Below are positions 2,209 through 60,813 of a DNA stretch of 64,000 nt, piece after piece; position 1 is the stretch's first letter, and each line of letters starts with the position of its first letter. Both the position numbers and the translations under genes were made by a program. The stretch comes from a virus. The notes below the pieces were generated by a model. The model was given only the letters and a program-made list of their open reading frames with translations, searched no databases and was not told the DNA's origin. The DNA lies in the IMG/VR virus record IMGVR_UViG_3300020442_003949, positions 27,013 through 91,012 of that record; one strand, written 5' to 3'.

Positions 2209-3571
2209 TTTTTATTCTTGTAAGGTATACATCTTCCACATCATCTATCTGATAATTCTGAAATACATCATTAAAACGTTTTTTAAATAATCTATCAGAA
2301 TATCTTCTATACACAAAAAAAGAACTATACCATTTTGGATCTAATTTTGTTGAATCTATATAATCTTTAATTTCGTCTAATATTTTTATTGCCGATTCAA
2401 TAGGTACGAATGTATCCTTTGATTTTAAATATCCATAGTTATCTTTGTAGTTTACTAAAGTCTTTCTTAAATACTTCTCATACTCTATTATTGCATCCTT
2501 TGTTTCATTGATATCTTCATATACTTCATTCCTAAACTCATGCATTATTAATGATGGATTTATATATTCTGGAGTTTGAACTGGGGCTGCTTTTATATCA
2601 TCAAGAGGCAAAGTTAAAATACTTTCAAATACATTTTTAATATCCATTATTTGATATATTGAATATGTAATAACTCCTACTATCTTGGAATTAGTATTAA
2701 TTTTCCTAAACTTATCTAAATTTGTAGATAATGTATTCCAATCTCCGTCTCGAAAATATCTATAAATATTTGTTCCTGCATCTATGCTTATATTCATAGT
2801 TACTTTTTTAAATTTTGAAAGCAAATCATTAAGGCGATCCATATCAAACTCAGCATTAAAATTTGTATAAAAAAATATGTGTAAATTTTTTGCATTAGGA
2901 TGATGTTGTAATAATTCTAGCGCAAGAAAAAATTGCTGTTGTTTGAGCGGCTCGCCTCCGCTACAATCAAATTGTTCTAAATTAGGAAAATTATCACATA
3001 AATCATTAATTATATTCCTTGTGTCATCTAAACTCAATTTCATTCTTTGATATCTTTCTTTATCCTTAGGCTGATGACGAAGTCCTAATAATTGATAAAT
3101 TAAATTATTAGATAATTCCTTACGATATTTTTCTATTTCTGATTGTAATCCTTTTAGTTTTGTTTCCCAACTACTTGAAAATGTAGAGTCACAATGCAAA
3201 CAAGACATATTACAACTATTATTAAATCTTAATTCAATATGTTTTAATGCTTTATAATCCATTTCTCCTGTTTCAGAATTATAAAATTCTTTACTAAAAT
3301 TTTTACTATAATCAAATCTCATAGATTTTAAATTTACTGCTTCCATTTCTTTACATAAATGACACCCAGCAGGAAATTTTCCGGATTGCAGTTGTTTCCT
3401 ATGATTTCTAAAATTTTCATTATTCCAAAAATCACTAGTCACCTTTCCTTCCAAAATATGCAAAGGGTCAACTTGTGTAGGGCAACTAGTTGCAAATCCG
3501 TTCTTATAGTTAACACCATGTAAGCTATAAAAACAATTAAGACTCATTGTATAATTATCTAATGTATTCAT
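2201..3571 (-). CDS. Radical SAM protein (twitch-type), copy 2 of the island
   Basis: A 456-residue paralogue of its downstream neighbour. The radical SAM cluster motif is C120-x3-C124-x2-C127 (CNMSCLHC), with SGGEP at 204-208. An N-terminal region carries C13, C30 and C70-x2-C73, laid out as in the other two twitch-type copies. A helical insert (about 135-185) separates the cluster motif from the GGEP strand. It overlaps the next gene by 8 bases and follows the 3585-4670 gene after 13 bases. The shared architecture of three copies suggests related but distinct substrates. No substrate can be named from sequence. Confidence 0.84.
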   Translation of the reverse strand: MNTLDNYTMSLNCFYSLHGVNYKNGFATSCPTQVDPLHILEGKVTSDFWNNENFRNHRKQLQSGKFPAGCHLCKEMEAVNLKSMRFDYSKNFSKEFYNSETGEMDYKALKHIELRFNNSCNMSCLHCDSTFSSSWETKLKGLQSEIEKYRKELSNNLIYQLLGLRHQPKDKERYQRMKLSLDDTRNIINDLCDNFPNLEQFDCSGGEPLKQQQFFLALELLQHHPNAKNLHIFFYTNFNAEFDMDRLNDLLSKFKKVTMNISIDAGTNIYRYFRDGDWNTLSTNLDKFRKINTNSKIVGVITYSIYQIMDIKNVFESILTLPLDDIKAAPVQTPEYINPSLIMHEFRNEVYEDINETKDAIIEYEKYLRKTLVNYKDNYGYLKSKDTFVPIESAIKILDEIKDYIDSTKLDPKWYSSFFVYRRYSDRLFKKRFNDVFQNYQIDDVEDVYLTRIKNG

Positions 3572-25323: not shown

Positions 25324-28300
25324 TTGGCAAGTCTGCCACGACAGATTGTATTTTTTTAACAATTCTATTATCAGTTTCACTTAAAGGCACACCTTTATCT
25401 GTCCAGGTTTTACCAATCCTCCTAATTACATTTATAATTTGACCTTTTGCTGGCACAAACTCTAATTGCAAAATATTCTCATCAAGACTAAATTCTGCAG
25501 GTAAAGTAACATCTGATTCAGGTGAATCCATACTTTGATTATTTTGATAACTTTCTAGTTCAGTTTTCCTTAATCTCCTACCAGCTACAAAAACTTCAAA
25601 TTCATTTACACTAGCTGGTGTAAAATCTAAAACAAATTCTTTATTCTGACCGTCAGCAGTAAATTTTGTTATAATTGTTTCGTCTTTATATGGCAAAATG
25701 CTTGAAACACTTTGATCGTAAACTTCAATACCTTTATTATACAAATGCTTTACACCTGTACCTAACGTACCTCGTCGTAAATGAGTAAGTGTATTACCAT
25801 ACCTTTTCCAATATTCAATACGTTCTCCAGCTATAAAAATTACTCCTGGATATTTACTTTGTTCATTAGGACTAGGTAATCCTTCTCCATTTGTAATTTC
25901 GATTGTTTTATCATACCAATTCAAATCATTGGCTAATTTAATGTTAAGTTGTCCATTTAGAACAGTATAATGATTTTTATTCATTATATCTTTAAATTGA
26001 CTCCACCCAAAAGTATTCTTAAATCTTGTATCACTAAAATGTATTGTTTGAATATTATCATTATCATTTACAGGATCAGTAAGAATTACCTGTAATTTGT
26101 TATCACTCAATTTATAGTCAATGCTTGATTGTAAAATTACTCCATTAACCGCTACCCATACATACTGATCATCTATAGCTGGTTGATTAAGTGGTACAAT
26201 ACCGTTACGTAAAAATCTTAGTTCATAATAATTTTCTGCTGTTTCGCCTATTTCTAACTGTCTTCCAATTTCTTCAAAAACAATTACATCATCTTCATTA
26301 GAAGTTATACCTAACAACCCCAAATCTATAATATTAGATCCTAATCCAAAAGGTGTTTGTATAACAGCTAAAGGATTACTTTGATAAGGAGTTGCAAAAT
26401 TTTCATCATCTATCCGGACATTATTTTTGTAAATAGCATATTGTGCGTTGGCATTCATTTCAAATGGTAATTCTATAATATTTGTATTACCCACTATAAC
26501 AGTCGCGTATCTATCACTAACACCAGGTAATAGTTTTGTACGCTCTATTACATCAAAACTTTGCCAATCTATACTCTGAGTATCGTGATTTGTAAACTGA
26601 TAAACTTTAATATTATCACCATTGCTTAAAGGAGTATGAATATGTAATTGCCCTGGTGTAGAAATAAAATCGCCTTGATCAAAATATCCATAACGATAAT
26701 CTCCTCCAGAATCTACACTATCTTCATAAGCATTAATGTAAACCCGTAAAGTATCTCCTGCAGAAAATATGCCTCTCTTCAATACAATTGTACTTCCGCT
26801 TTGCTGATCATCAGGTAAAGTAGGATCTATAGATTCTGCTGCTGTAAATGTCCATTGCGTCAAATAATTTAATTCAACTGTATTTAAGAATACACGCAAC
26901 TGTTTAAAGCTAACTGTACTAATAGGAACTTGATATAGTTTCAATTGATATTCTAATACGTCTGTACAAACAAAAGTTTCAACATACCCAGGATTTAACA
27001 ATTTGTCATTTACAATAACCATTGTATACCATTCAACCGGTTCCTGTTGCTTAGGTATTTTAGTCAACTCAAACGCTGTTGAACTACCGTCAGCTACAAA
27101 ATTATCAATATGTACATTGCTGAAATTATTTTGACTATTTTCAAAAATTTTGTAATGTATTATACTTCCTTCACTCACAGGATTAGCAAACTTAATTAAC
27201 ACATTATTTGAACTATCATATAATTCACTATCTGTCTTTTTCAATACATAATCTAAATGCTGGCCATTTACTGTTACATAACTACTTACATTATCTACCC
27301 ATCTAGCATTTGTTATATAAGAGCCTAATGTTCCATCAGCAACAATATTATCTGTATCAAGTATATTACTTCCACTACTACCTAATATTAAAATATTAAT
27401 CCTACTATTTTGTGGCAGAGTATTTGTAAATTCTATTAGCTTTCCTTCAACATTGACATTATAATCAACTGCAACAGTTTTTATTTTATTATCTACATTC
27501 ACAATAACCGAATCTACTGATATCGGATATTCTAATAAAGAAAAACTATTTTGTTGTCCGTCAGCAATATAATTTAAAGAAACAATATTACTAATACCTG
27601 GTGTTGGTCTTTCGTAAACTTTTATATTTACTGAGTCCTGTACTAATCCAGGAACTTGTTCTTCAGGTCCTTTTGAAGTTAATGGTGTAATAAAATTATC
27701 ACCATCTATAATTATGTCTTCTGCATTTACACCTAATGCATTACTATAATTTAATTTTCCCCCTCCTACTAGCGCATCAAAGTCTAAATCAGTAGGTATA
27801 AAACTACCATCACTAGTAATTTTCCTAATAATTATCTTATCTCCTACTTCTGGTTGTATATTTAAATCTCTAACCAATATACCGTTTAGTACTCCGTCGC
27901 CTGTTATACTATTTGTGACCGCATTAGGATTTGTATTAGATATGTTTTCATCATTATAATTAATATCATCTATCCGCAGATTATTATGATATATGTTATA
28001 TATGATTCCATTTTCCAAAGGATACCTAAAATCTATGTATAATTCATCTAATATTTTTGCAGAAATCAATTCTGTTATTTGCCCTGCAGTGCATTGGTTG
28101 AACAACGGAATAATTTGATTTTCAATATTGTTACTTGCTGTTTCACTTTCACTATTGCCTAAACCATATTTTTGTATTTCATTTGCACTGTTAAAGGTAA
28201 CCCTTGGAACTGCATCTGAAATCCCTTCCTCGTCAACAATATCAATTACTTCATCAAGAACATTTAATATAGATGATCCATCTAAAGGATCTGCTAATGG

Positions 28301-56059: not shown

Positions 56060-56956
56060 ATGCATGTATATGAGATAATAGAAGCGAATGTAGACGGTAA
56101 TACTATTAATTTGCCTAAAGGATCACAGATAGTACAAAAACCTACTTCTGAATTACCTAAAGGATCACAGATAGTACAAAAAACTGATAAACAATCTTTT
56201 AATAAAACCACACCTACTCCTATTCCTTCTGACACACCTAAACCATCTGATAATCCTGCAAATACTCCTGGTCCATTTAAGAAAGCTTTTAAAGCAACAT
56301 GGGGAGTAATGAAGAGGATCTTTACGTTTAAGTTCCAATTAATACTTAATAGTATTCTAGAAGCTGACAATTTACATAAAATTTCGAAAGAATATGCTAT
56401 GATTATGGAATTAAACAATTGTTCAGGAAAAGTTGTACCAAATCATACCGCAGAATGGCAAGGTAAAGAATATTCTAGTTTGGAACTGGTCAAGCGATTA
56501 AATCATCGTGTATACAAAATGAAAAAAGACGTAGCCCAAGGACTTGGTAGGATATTACTTGCTTCAGTTGGTGCTGATCTAATAACTCAATACAAAGACG
56601 ATCTATCTAAGGTACCGCACATAGGTAAAATTTTTAAAAGGATCCCTTTTAAAGCAACAGCAGGCGGGCAAGCTGCCAGACAAATAATGGATGAGATTGT
56701 AGAAGCTACTAACAGCGAACATATGTTTTATGCGATTGGAGATTATATGGTAGGCGATTATCTTGGTCACCTTACCTTAGAGCTATACAGTCAATGTGAT
56801 AAAACAAAAAATGAAGCTCTTACTTTCAGTGGCGTAAAATTAGATATCGGCAGTATAGGTCCAAAATCTTTAAAGCAGGACACAAGAAAACTAAAAAAGA
56901 TATACGACGAAATACTAGCTAACAGCCCAATGATAGCGGATTTGATGTCTAAATAA
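56060..56956 (+). CDS. Unknown protein, 298 residues
   Basis: The start 'MHVYEIIEANVDG' is a form seen at the head of many marine-phage proteins of unknown role. A Pro/Thr/Ser-rich linker follows (about 45-72). Within it the 9-residue segment PKGSQIVQK occurs twice, from a 27-base perfect direct repeat. The rest is a helical, basic domain ('GPFKKAFKATWGVMKRIFTF', 'RLNHRVYKMKKDVAQGLGRI'). It is preceded by GTGAG and the hairpins of the gene-free region. Its end overlaps the converging gp51-like frame by 8 bases. No function can be assigned. Confidence 0.62.
   Translation: MHVYEIIEANVDGNTINLPKGSQIVQKPTSELPKGSQIVQKTDKQSFNKTTPTPIPSDTPKPSDNPANTPGPFKKAFKATWGVMKRIFTFKFQLILNSILEADNLHKISKEYAMIMELNNCSGKVVPNHTAEWQGKEYSSLELVKRLNHRVYKMKKDVAQGLGRILLASVGADLITQYKDDLSKVPHIGKIFKRIPFKATAGGQAARQIMDEIVEATNSEHMFYAIGDYMVGDYLGHLTLELYSQCDKTKNEALTFSGVKLDIGSIGPKSLKQDTRKLKKIYDEILANSPMIADLMSK
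56114..56182 (+). repeat. Two identical 27-base direct repeats
   Basis: Copies at 56114-56140 and 56156-56182 are identical, with a period of 42 bases, in frame within the 56060 gene. The identity points to a recent duplication that lengthened the linker. Confidence 0.9.
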
Positions 56957-57182
56957 AAGGCAAATGGGTATTTTTTGTTGTTTCTAGATTATCTTCAATT
57001 ATTGCTGCAATTATTTGTTTATCATCAGCAGATATTTTAAACATTACATCATCATAGGATAAAGATCCACGCATATACCATGCAAGTCTATATACTGTGT
57101 GTTTAATTTGTTTAGATTCTTGTTCGTAGGTTTTTGACAGGGTTATAAGGTCAGATTCCGAGTAGTTAATGATTTCTTGCCG
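56949..57182 (-). CDS. gp51: gp51-like baseplate assembly frame, probably made by -1 frameshift from gp26
   Basis: A 77-codon open frame in the -1 phase relative to gp26, running past the gp26 stop to TAG at 56949-56951. It has no in-frame ATG, GTG or TTG before its conserved helices; an in-frame stop lies only a few codons upstream of the slip site. The encoded 'YEQESKQIKHTVYRLAWYMRGSLSYDDVMF', read here in parts, and 'AAIIEDNLETTKNTHLP' resemble gp51-type small proteins that follow gp26 in marine T4-like phages. Both facts fit synthesis as a gp26 fusion (about 354 residues) through the slippery site at 57182-57188. Its end overlaps the convergent 56060 gene by 8 bases. Confidence 0.65.
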   Translation of the reverse strand, partial: RQEIINYSESDLITLSKTYEQESKQIKHTVYRLAWYMRGSLSYDDVMFKISADDKQIIAAIIEDNLETTKNTHLPFI

Positions 57183-58012
57183 AAAAAACTTGAATAATCC
57201 ACTGATATTTTAGATTTAAATTCATGTTCGCAGTTTTCATTACTACATTTTGCAGAAAAATCAGGCAGAGACCATGTATCATTCATTTCTTTTACAGTGT
57301 CTTGGATCATATTGAAAATTTCTGCGTCATTATTAATTACAAATTGTTTTATAGCATTAAAATCAAATTCAACATCCGTGCCGTTAGAAATATTATGCAC
57401 GTGATTTATTGCAACACTTGCTGTTAATTGGGTTAAGTCATTGAATACTTCTTGCCGAAGCTTGTCTTTACGGTCGGTATCCTCGTCTGGTATGGCTTTT
57501 TCTATATGAGCTAATCGTTTCTGCAGTGAAAAATTTTCTTTACTTAACGAAGTTTGTTCAGAATAATTTAAAGGACGTAGTTCAAAACGCAGATCAGTTA
57601 TATTGAAGCTTTTCTTAATTTCATTACTAGACAACACTTCTAGTAACCCTGGTAGATTCAAATCATGTTCTGTCGATTCATTACATTTTGGACAGCTTGT
57701 TGTTACAGGCATTGTGTCACCGTAGGTTGCCATGCGTATTGCAATTAATATGTAATCCACGTCATAACTTACAAGTTTCCATGGATCCAATATGTTAGGC
57801 ACACAGCTTTTTATTATCTGTGCAGTAGCTTCACCAGAAAATAATGCATCCGGAGTTTTGATAATTAATTCGTCCATTGTATTCATACCAAAGACTGGCA
57901 ATCCGTCACTCTTTCCGTCTTTAATTATACTTTCATCATAAAAAATACCTGTAGAAGGAAGATCTATGAATATTTTTGCTTGTCTTTGGTATTGTTGTAA
58001 AAAACTTGTCAT
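57143..58012 (-). CDS. gp26: Baseplate hub subunit gp26-like
   Basis: 289 residues of the T4 gp26 baseplate family. An N-terminal 'IDLPSTGIFYDE' and 'GMNTMDELIIKTPDALFSGE' are typical. C107-x2-C110 ('CPKC') and C256-x4-C261 ('CSNENC') form a likely zinc-ribbon, as in marine relatives. The frame reaches 'DYSSFFGKK', whose codons contain T TTT TTC, then ends 10 codons later. Such short tails after a slip site are usual for frameshift products. It is the only leftward gene of this block and diverges from the tape-measure candidate. Confidence 0.82.
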   Translation of the reverse strand: MTSFLQQYQRQAKIFIDLPSTGIFYDESIIKDGKSDGLPVFGMNTMDELIIKTPDALFSGEATAQIIKSCVPNILDPWKLVSYDVDYILIAIRMATYGDTMPVTTSCPKCNESTEHDLNLPGLLEVLSSNEIKKSFNITDLRFELRPLNYSEQTSLSKENFSLQKRLAHIEKAIPDEDTDRKDKLRQEVFNDLTQLTASVAINHVHNISNGTDVEFDFNAIKQFVINNDAEIFNMIQDTVKEMNDTWSLPDFSAKCSNENCEHEFKSKISVDYSSFFGKKSLTTRNLTL

Positions 58013-58022
58013 TGTTTTCCCA

Positions 58023-58030
58023 TATAAATA
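58023..58030 (+). promoter_or_regulatory. T4-type late promoter box TATAAATA
   Basis: An exact TATAAATA on the plus strand, 38 bases before ATG 58069 and clear of coding sequence. With AAGGA at 58056-58060 it would start late transcription of the tape-measure candidate and portal operon. Confidence 0.65.
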
Positions 58031-58068
58031 TAATATACTTATATTCTGATTTTGTAAGGAAATTATTT

Positions 58069-60813
58069 ATGGCTTTTACGCAAGATGAATTAGATCAACT
58101 GAAAAATACTTTAGCCCAAGGCATAGAAACTGGATTTAAAAAATATCAACCAACCAACAATCAACCAGGGACTAGATCAGGTCCTCCAGGAGGCTCTTTA
58201 GAATCTGCCTTAGGTGCAGGATCCGACGGATTAAAAGGTGCCTTTGGTGATATGATCGGTGTACTTAATAATGGTAAGGGCAATCTAGCTGATTTTGGCA
58301 GCATGGTAAGCAAAGTAGGAGACGGATTAGGCAGTGCATTTACAAATATACCAATGATCGGTGGTGCATTAGGCGATGCGCTGAAAGGTTTAAGTGGCGC
58401 TGTTGCATTTAGTAGTGCCCTAATCCAGGACAATGCTGATATGTTCCGATATCTCAGTAAAGTAGGAGGAGGATTCAACGGCGATCTAGGTAAACTTAGA
58501 ATACAGGCAGCAGAAGCAGGATTAGGTTTACAAGACTATGCTGAATTGATCTCAGAAAATGGACAAATAATGTCTATGTTTGCAGGAGGAGTAGACGGCG
58601 GTGCAGAAGCAATATCAGAATTAGGTAGAGGATTATTTGAAACTGGAATGATTGACCAGTTTATGAATATGGGAATGACTGTTAAAGAAAGCAATGAATT
58701 TTTAATAAGGAATTTAGCTTTAACAAGACGAAGCTCTTTGTTTCAAAATAAAAGTACCCAAGAACAAATATCTGCAGCTAATGAGTTAGCTATAAAAATG
58801 ATGACAATGAGTAAACTCACTGGCAAAAACATCCAAGAAATGCAAAATGAAATGATGGAGAGAAATAGATCCGGAAAATCAATCGCTGCTCTAAGATTAC
58901 TAGAGATGGATGGTATTTTGAATGCGGAAGATGCGCGAGCTGCAATGCAAACTGGTTTAGAAGGTGCACCGAAGGTGATGAAAGACCTTATGGATGATTT
59001 AATTGCTACAGGTGTGCCTATGAGCGAAGCTACTAAGAATTTTGCTGCAATCAACGGAGAAGCATATAATCTAGCTATGCAAGCAAGAGAAGCATTGCAA
59101 AGAGGTGACACAGCAGAAGCAGAACGCTTGACTAAAGAAGCTACTGCAGCTACTTTAGAATTTGCAAAAAGTAGGCAAGGACTTACCTTAGCAACCTTAT
59201 CTGATGTAAGTGATGTTGCCCAAACACAAGCAGATGCGCTGGCAGAAATTAATCCATTAATTACGCAGATAGAGCAGCATGTTGGAAGGACGGGAGATGT
59301 AATAGAAGGATTCAATCTTGTTGTAGAAGAAATGACTCAAAAAGTTAGAGATACCGCTGCAGGTACTATGCCAGGTACCGAAGTATTTGGAGCAGTGCGA
59401 GAAACTGAACAAGTTATGAGTCAACTAGCTGCACAAGTTAATCGCCTAATAGGTGAAGGATTGAGCAGTGAAGAAATGATGAGTGCAATGCAATCATATA
59501 CCCAAACTCTTGAAAATGTATCCTTTGAGGAATTAGAAGATAAGATCCAAGGAATGATTACTACCGCTTCGTCTTTGGTCGATAGAGATCCTATAGATAC
59601 GCAAACTGCGGAGCTAGAAAAATTAATTAATAGGAAAGATGAAAATATCGCATTCCAGCTGCAAGCAGGAAAGGAACCAGTAACTGCTGAGGAAATCTAT
59701 ACTTTGATGCAGCGAATGAAAGATCCAAATTCTTCAGTAGATGATCAACAGGCTGCTTTTTCTAGACTGCAAGAATTAAATGTGCTAGACAAAGATAAAA
59801 ATGTTACAGAAGCGTACATGAGTGAAAAAGCAAGATTCCAAAAGAAAGATTTTGAAGAAGTAGAAGCAAGCGATAAACGGATAGAATACAAAACTATGCT
59901 AGACGATTTAAGCGAATCAATAGGCGGATTTGTAAATGAAACATTAGATTCTTGGTCAGAGAAATTTAATAAGTTTATAAATGAAGATCTTGGTTTACAG
60001 GCATTCTTAGATAAATTTGAAAGTTTTTCAGAGAAATTTATGAAGTTTGTAAATGAAGATCTTGGTTTACAGGCATTCTTAGATAAATTCCAAAGTTTTT
60101 CAACTTCATTAGGAGAAATAAAAGATTCATTTTCTATTACAATTGATGAATATACAGGTAAGCTAAGAGATAGTATTGACGGAGTTGTTGAATGGTATGA
60201 CGAAATGACAATTGCAATCGATGACTTTATAGCAAGTATAAAAAAATCATACAATAGTATAACTGAATGGACGAAAGACATGCAAACTACTATCCAAGAA
60301 TTTTTTGAGACTCCATTTAACGAATTATGGAATGAATGGTTTGGTAGCACAACAGATAATAATGAAAAAGCCACTGTAGGAATGTTTACACCTCAGAGTT
60401 CTACTGATTTACCTATTCAGATTGAAGATCCTGTAATGCCTAATCAAACAATCAGTAAATCTTTAGCAAAACTAGAAGATATAAAAACAAATGTTCCAAA
60501 TCGATCAGATGTAGCAACAGCAAAAGAATATGAAAAACTTGCAGCAAAAATTCAACCAGAACAAAAAACTATCACTGATCGACAATATCAAGAGCTTATA
60601 GATGCAACAAATAAAAATACAGAAATTTTAAATACCTTAGCTCTAGCTTATACTGAATCACAACCTAATAGAATGCAAGAAAATCCAGATTTAACTAAAT
60701 TACTTACAGATCTTAACACAACAGCGAAACAACAATTAGAGATAAATACACAAAGCATGAATCTAACAAAGAAAAGTCTAAGTCTTAACAATGATCAATT
60801 AATGTATGCCTAG
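58069..60813 (+). CDS. Tape-measure or tail structural protein candidate, 914 residues
   Basis: The open frame extends to 57976, but ATG 58069 follows AAGGA by eight bases and lies downstream of an exact late promoter, and the earlier codons overlap gp26. The protein is helical, with a Gly-rich hydrophobic region ('GGALGDALKGLSGAVAFSSA', about 95-140), Ala-rich heptads and a duplicated 24-residue unit near 630-677. Length and composition suit a tape-measure or a tail-interior protein, expected near gp26. Homology to T4 gp29 is not visible, so this remains inference from form and place. Confidence 0.55.
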   Translation: MAFTQDELDQLKNTLAQGIETGFKKYQPTNNQPGTRSGPPGGSLESALGAGSDGLKGAFGDMIGVLNNGKGNLADFGSMVSKVGDGLGSAFTNIPMIGGALGDALKGLSGAVAFSSALIQDNADMFRYLSKVGGGFNGDLGKLRIQAAEAGLGLQDYAELISENGQIMSMFAGGVDGGAEAISELGRGLFETGMIDQFMNMGMTVKESNEFLIRNLALTRRSSLFQNKSTQEQISAANELAIKMMTMSKLTGKNIQEMQNEMMERNRSGKSIAALRLLEMDGILNAEDARAAMQTGLEGAPKVMKDLMDDLIATGVPMSEATKNFAAINGEAYNLAMQAREALQRGDTAEAERLTKEATAATLEFAKSRQGLTLATLSDVSDVAQTQADALAEINPLITQIEQHVGRTGDVIEGFNLVVEEMTQKVRDTAAGTMPGTEVFGAVRETEQVMSQLAAQVNRLIGEGLSSEEMMSAMQSYTQTLENVSFEELEDKIQGMITTASSLVDRDPIDTQTAELEKLINRKDENIAFQLQAGKEPVTAEEIYTLMQRMKDPNSSVDDQQAAFSRLQELNVLDKDKNVTEAYMSEKARFQKKDFEEVEASDKRIEYKTMLDDLSESIGGFVNETLDSWSEKFNKFINEDLGLQAFLDKFESFSEKFMKFVNEDLGLQAFLDKFQSFSTSLGEIKDSFSITIDEYTGKLRDSIDGVVEWYDEMTIAIDDFIASIKKSYNSITEWTKDMQTTIQEFFETPFNELWNEWFGSTTDNNEKATVGMFTPQSSTDLPIQIEDPVMPNQTISKSLAKLEDIKTNVPNRSDVATAKEYEKLAAKIQPEQKTITDRQYQELIDATNKNTEILNTLALAYTESQPNRMQENPDLTKLLTDLNTTAKQQLEINTQSMNLTKKSLSLNNDQLMYA
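59957..60100 (+). repeat. Tandem 72-base duplication in the tape-measure candidate
   Basis: Two adjacent in-frame copies, 59957-60028 and 60029-60100, differ at only a few bases and encode the unit around 'NEDLGLQAFLDKF'. In a tape measure, gain or loss of such units would change tail length. Confidence 0.9.

Follow-up and report, generated by a model that had tools for sequence, protein, structure and literature searches.

A conserved T_TTT_TTC heptamer in a viral gene 26 and its predicted role in making short and long tail assembly chaperones

The short chaperone gpG of phage lambda is accompanied by a minor long form, gpGT, made by -1 frameshifting, and the two organise the tape measure protein (PMC5009743, where the work of Xu, Hendrix and Duda (2004) on tail assembly chaperones of long-tailed phages is cited). 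In phage T4, gp51 and gp26 are both listed as hub assembly chaperones, gp51 being required for assembly and absent from the particle (PMC3004832). Later papers cite Vladimirov, Gautam and Davidson (2022, Virology 566:9-15) as having identified the tail assembly chaperones of T4-like phages (PMC10274946, PMC10885494), and credit the same study with slippery poly-T stretches in the TAC-N genes of these phages (PMC12846349). The chaperone family and, by these reports, the slip type are thus already known, including for T4-like phages, and the case described here is therefore not new in kind. Added here are its demonstration in the present sequence, statistics at the codon level, and a breadth that takes in jumbo phages as well as contigs of marine and freshwater origin.

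The window, i.e. the whole stretch of DNA analysed, comprises 64,000 nucleotides of IMG/VR record IMGVR_UViG_3300020442_003949 (positions 27,013 to 91,012); the features discussed are listed in Table 1. An earlier reading made from the letters and open reading frames of this window (the sequence-only reading) had placed a slippery heptamer in the frame of a gp26-like gene. Our re-reading agrees: near its end this frame runs AGT TTT TTC GGC on the minus strand, with T57188 to C57182 in X_XXY_YYZ phase. The 77-codon -1 frame that had been described as running past the gp26 stop is indeed open, from 57209 to a TAG at 56951-56949, and the predicted slip product has the length of about 354 residues given then (275 + FF + 77 = 354 aa). 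Also correct were the in-frame stop just upstream of the site (TAA 57212-57210), which excludes independent initiation far upstream, and the lack of a standard start before the conserved helices, the first ATG, GTG or TTG of the -1 frame being the ATG at 57074, within the W-Y-M-R-G helix, the best conserved one. The end of the extension (56949-56956) shares eight bases with a convergent ORF at 56060-56956 (298 aa), for which Pfam and PHROG gave no match.

Table 1. Features at and around the gene 26 junction (window coordinates)
Feature	Coordinates	Strand	Assignment and basis
gp26-like ORF, 289 aa	57143..58012	-	Predicted short tail assembly (baseplate hub) chaperone; PF12322, PHROG_150, AlphaFold2 model
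Slippery heptamer T_TTT_TTC	57182..57188	-	Predicted -1 ribosomal frameshift site; phase and conservation among relatives
-1 frame extension, 77 codons + TAG	56949..57182	-	Putative gp51 C-terminal domain; purifying selection, all-helical model
gp26 stop codon TAA	57143..57145	-	Predicted to be bypassed by shifted ribosomes
TAA in -1 frame	57210..57212	-	Directly upstream of the slip site
Divergent 945-aa ORF adjoining the chaperone gene	57976..60813	+	Probable tape-measure/virion protein

We consider it very likely that gene 26 of this marine T4-like phage makes two products, a short/long tail assembly chaperone pair, via a -1 slip at T_TTT_TTC. We infer both the slippage in this phage and an efficiency at which most ribosomes would end at 57143 and thereby make the short chaperone of 289 aa. 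A smaller share, with tRNA-Phe in the P and A sites on U_UUU_UUC, would move back one base, re-pair Phe-Phe on UUU UUU, read CGG next and continue translation to 56949. In the resulting 354-aa long form, a 77-aa helical gp51 domain would stand in place of the final 12 residues of gp26, and the pair would serve tail assembly (hub and tape measure) as a chaperone, like lambda gpG/gpGT.

In-phase X_XXY_YYZ heptamers are very common in the 36 long ORFs (20,147 codons) of this AT-rich window. T_TTT_TTN occurs in phase 33 times in these ORFs, five times as T_TTT_TTC, and 5 of their 41 Phe-Phe pairs are written in this form. Slippery heptamers are thus frequent by chance in the window and a single one means little; a chance origin, plausible from the window alone, is ruled out by conservation among relatives. 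With gp26 and the extension as queries, 76 junctions were retrieved, 59 of them non-redundant; together with seven from annotated cyanophages and jumbo phages, these gave 66 relatives from marine and freshwater contigs, jumbo phages and cyanophages. T_TTT_TTC or T_TTT_TTT lies in phase in 66/66 of these. A search with cyanophage gp26 added a further 65 non-redundant junctions from cyanophage contigs, with T_TTT_TTC in 65/65, followed by one codon and the gp26 stop. Conservation of heptamer and phase in gp26/gp51 regions, proposed as a check when the site was first described, therefore holds in both sets, and we judge the site to be real despite its chance frequency in the window. It was not built in by the search, since the Phe-Phe pair was absent from most search patterns (spanned by one of six peptide patterns in one search and by none in two others).

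Site and frame stay fixed among the relatives, while gp26 ends at different distances past the heptamer, between 6 and 45 nt. T_TTT_TTY is present at the junction in all 39 relatives that are less than 70% identical in the fusion protein. Given each gene's own codon use, and ignoring shared ancestry, the probability of a T before Phe-Phe in all 39 is about 10^-7.5, and that of TTT as the first Phe codon in all 39 about 10^-8. The second Phe codon is TTC in 37/39 and TTT in two (all-TTC would be about 10^-20, again ignoring shared ancestry). The preceding codon takes nine forms (AGT, GAT, AAT, CAT, GCT, TCT, ACT, TAT, CGT), always ending in T. T_TTT_TTC is also found in Vibrio phage nt-1, Aeromonas phage Aeh1, P-SSM2 and S-CRM01, T_TTT_TTG in phiM9 and RHph_N34, and T_TTT_TTT in phiN3.

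There are two exceptions. Escherichia phage 241 (Kuttervirus, L177) has a gp51-like -1 ORF after gp26 (YSIFEISESMPWHLDLLTETLKIRL, 1928-2101) without a canonical heptamer, the junction reading GAA ATT TTC ATT TAA. In Streptomyces phage BRock (L085), an ORF of similar size after the gp26-like gene (LAEIKKLTYRERQHWLDRYLYKLEQEL, 3003-3245) lies in the +1 frame, possibly reached by a +1 slip at CTG TTT CGC or from a separate start. The uncultured 595-kb phage LR756511 (L089) has a 373-aa gp26-like ORF in which GGG_TTT_TTT_C lies in phase, 76 nt from the end; its -1 frame ends in a gp51-like motif.

Beyond the gp26 stop, the window and its nearest relative (L013) were compared frame by frame: in the -1 frame pS is 0.48 and pN is 0.18; the remaining frames lack this bias. 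This substitution pattern indicates that the -1 frame past the gp26 stop evolves as protein-coding sequence under purifying selection. A structure model of the extension is all-helical (pLDDT 86) and has no significant match in BFVD.

Alternatively, ribosomes finishing gp26 might reinitiate to make gp51 as a separate small protein, as many cyanophage and jumbo phage annotations imply. An ATG does overlap the stop (ATGA or TAATG) in Atu_ph07, Phosso, 121Q, JNE01, nt-1, Sf-FR1 and some contigs, although ATGA results automatically whenever a TGA stop follows a final codon ending in A. None of the findings that the sequence-only reading had named as refuting a frameshift is the general pattern: the placement of the ATG differs between relatives, and those in which it overlaps the stop retain the heptamer. 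The window and many relatives have no ATG, GTG or TTG close to the junction (25/66 lack one within 18 codons of the slip, and in the others the positions are scattered), homology begins at the FF codons (the alignment of all extensions starts at FFR, apart from rare cases that differ at R), and the invariant in-phase T_TTT_TTN is left unexplained. We therefore regard reinitiation as improbable.

The same fusion could be made from a subset of mRNAs by transcriptional slippage adding one U to the T6 run, which is a homopolymer, extended to T7 in three relatives, and would be expected to yield the same -1 product. However, six Ts is short for efficient polymerase slippage, and in most relatives the run has not grown longer. 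A polymerase would not need the exact X_XXY_YYZ phase that is kept here, but conservation of Phe-Phe could be another reason for this phase. On this evidence there is only a slim chance that the polymerase accounts for the fusion. Sequencing or assembly error, or decay of an in-frame fusion into a pseudogene, could be entertained since the window comes from one IMG/VR contig, but is refuted, with next to no probability left to it, by the same split at the same heptamer in > 130 non-redundant junctions, finished isolate genomes included.

For the ribosomal slip that we favour, a stimulatory downstream structure is common but not obligatory. The window has no stem-loop downstream of the site (folds of 60-127 nt are weaker than shuffles, z +0.7 to +1.2), as the sequence-only reading had remarked, and no Shine-Dalgarno-like stimulator was noticed upstream. 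Among the 39 relatives, the 60 nt starting 5 nt past the site have a median z of -1.6, with z <= -2 in 14/39, and no common consensus fold emerged across them. A hairpin about 5 nt after the heptamer can form in many relatives (L001-L009, L051-L081; e.g. L052, L059, L081, L084), and these may be lineage-specific stimulators. In this AT-rich case, a bare U_UUU_UUC may suffice for programmed slippage.

The gp26-like ORF matches PF12322 T4_baseplate (E=5.9e-15) and phrog_150 baseplate hub (E=1.4e-15). Its AlphaFold2 model (pLDDT 88.8) matches T4-like baseplate hub assembly proteins (E=4.7e-19, TM 0.85); against the PDB the best Foldseek E was 1.2, with no tail chaperone among the matches listed. 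T4 gp26 (208 aa) and T4 gp51 (249 aa) both belong to PF12322 and PHROG_150 and are thus paralogues, gp51 extending the gp26 body by about 45 residues at the C-terminus and covering PHROG_150 columns 13-280 as a single protein. Cyanophage gp26 matches columns 5-232, and the cyanophage -1 extension matches columns 231-280 from its first residue, at FF. The cyanophage extension is similar to the C-terminus of T4 gp51 (BLASTP E=7e-5; hhalign 4e-4), and the extension in the window aligns with those of cyanophages and jumbo phages. These alignments show the predicted slip product to be colinear with T4 gp51, the link running through cyanophages. A direct profile match of the window-clade extension to T4 gp51 fell in the N-terminal part and was unconvincing, and a match to the C-terminus was not found.

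T4 gp26 ends ...EFFELL, its FF codons being TTC TTT, without heptamer or extension; T4 gp51 carries the extension in frame, and Shewanella phage Thanatos-1 shares this layout of two genes. By sequence comparison, then, frameshift phages are predicted to obtain gp26 and gp51 from one gene, where T4 uses two, a short and a long paralogue. The earlier proposal that gp26 and gp51 are joined by a -1 slip is thus supported by the heptamer, its phase and the gp51-like frame, all conserved across phage families, but the fusion is not the new chimera it was taken for: it corresponds to what T4 encodes as gp51, the long tail assembly chaperone. On balance we lean towards the view that the T_TTT_TTN frameshift is the route by which the long chaperone was ancestrally made throughout the T4 superfamily (freshwater and marine contigs, cyanophages, rhizobial phages and jumbo phages of 280-490 kb), the heptamer alone being conserved while hairpins come and go, and that T4 genes 26 and 51 are a late replacement by duplication.

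Two obscure annotations, baseplate hub subunit gp26 and baseplate hub assembly catalyst gp51, would on this reading become one gene with two products, also in phages where gp51 is annotated short or missing, which offers a precise correction for many genome records. Cyanophage gp51 has been described as lacking its first ~200 residues (Sullivan et al. 2010, PMC3037559), a seeming truncation for which the frameshift would account. In Aeh1, from which gp51 was reported missing (PMC3037559), it is present as an unannotated -1 extension beyond gp26 (L176, 1141-1917), after T_TTT_TTC. The gp51 extensions of S-RSM4 (L082, 3178-3372) and Atu_ph07 (L001, 2310-2543) are annotated from internal ATGs, cutting off conserved residues, and those of ACG-2014h, PA5oct and RaK2 are left unannotated. 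Family and profile searches with the 945-aa ORF adjoining the chaperone gene gave no convincing match; neighbours at the same position in PA5oct and RaK2 are annotated as structural protein or similar to tape measure protein, and this ORF probably encodes a tape-measure or virion protein.

The arrangement resembles lambda gpG/gpGT in that a minor long form would be made by a -1 frameshift close to the end of the gene for the short chaperone; as in lambda, the neighbouring gene may be that of the tape measure. It differs in that the tape measure-like ORF is divergent, not downstream, and in that no sequence or solved-structure similarity to the lambda proteins was found. The slip site of lambda is G_GGA_AAG, that of the window T_TTT_TTC. 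With T4 gp26 and gp51 the locus shares the PF12322/PHROG_150 family and the combination of a short form with a long form bearing a C-terminal extension, but unlike T4 and Thanatos-1 it has one gene and a predicted slip, and its extension is longer and diverged. Genes 26 and 51 of Kyanoviridae (P-SSM2, S-RSM4, S-CRM01), although annotated as two genes, have the same organisation as the window, two overlapping ORFs with T_TTT_TTC in phase.
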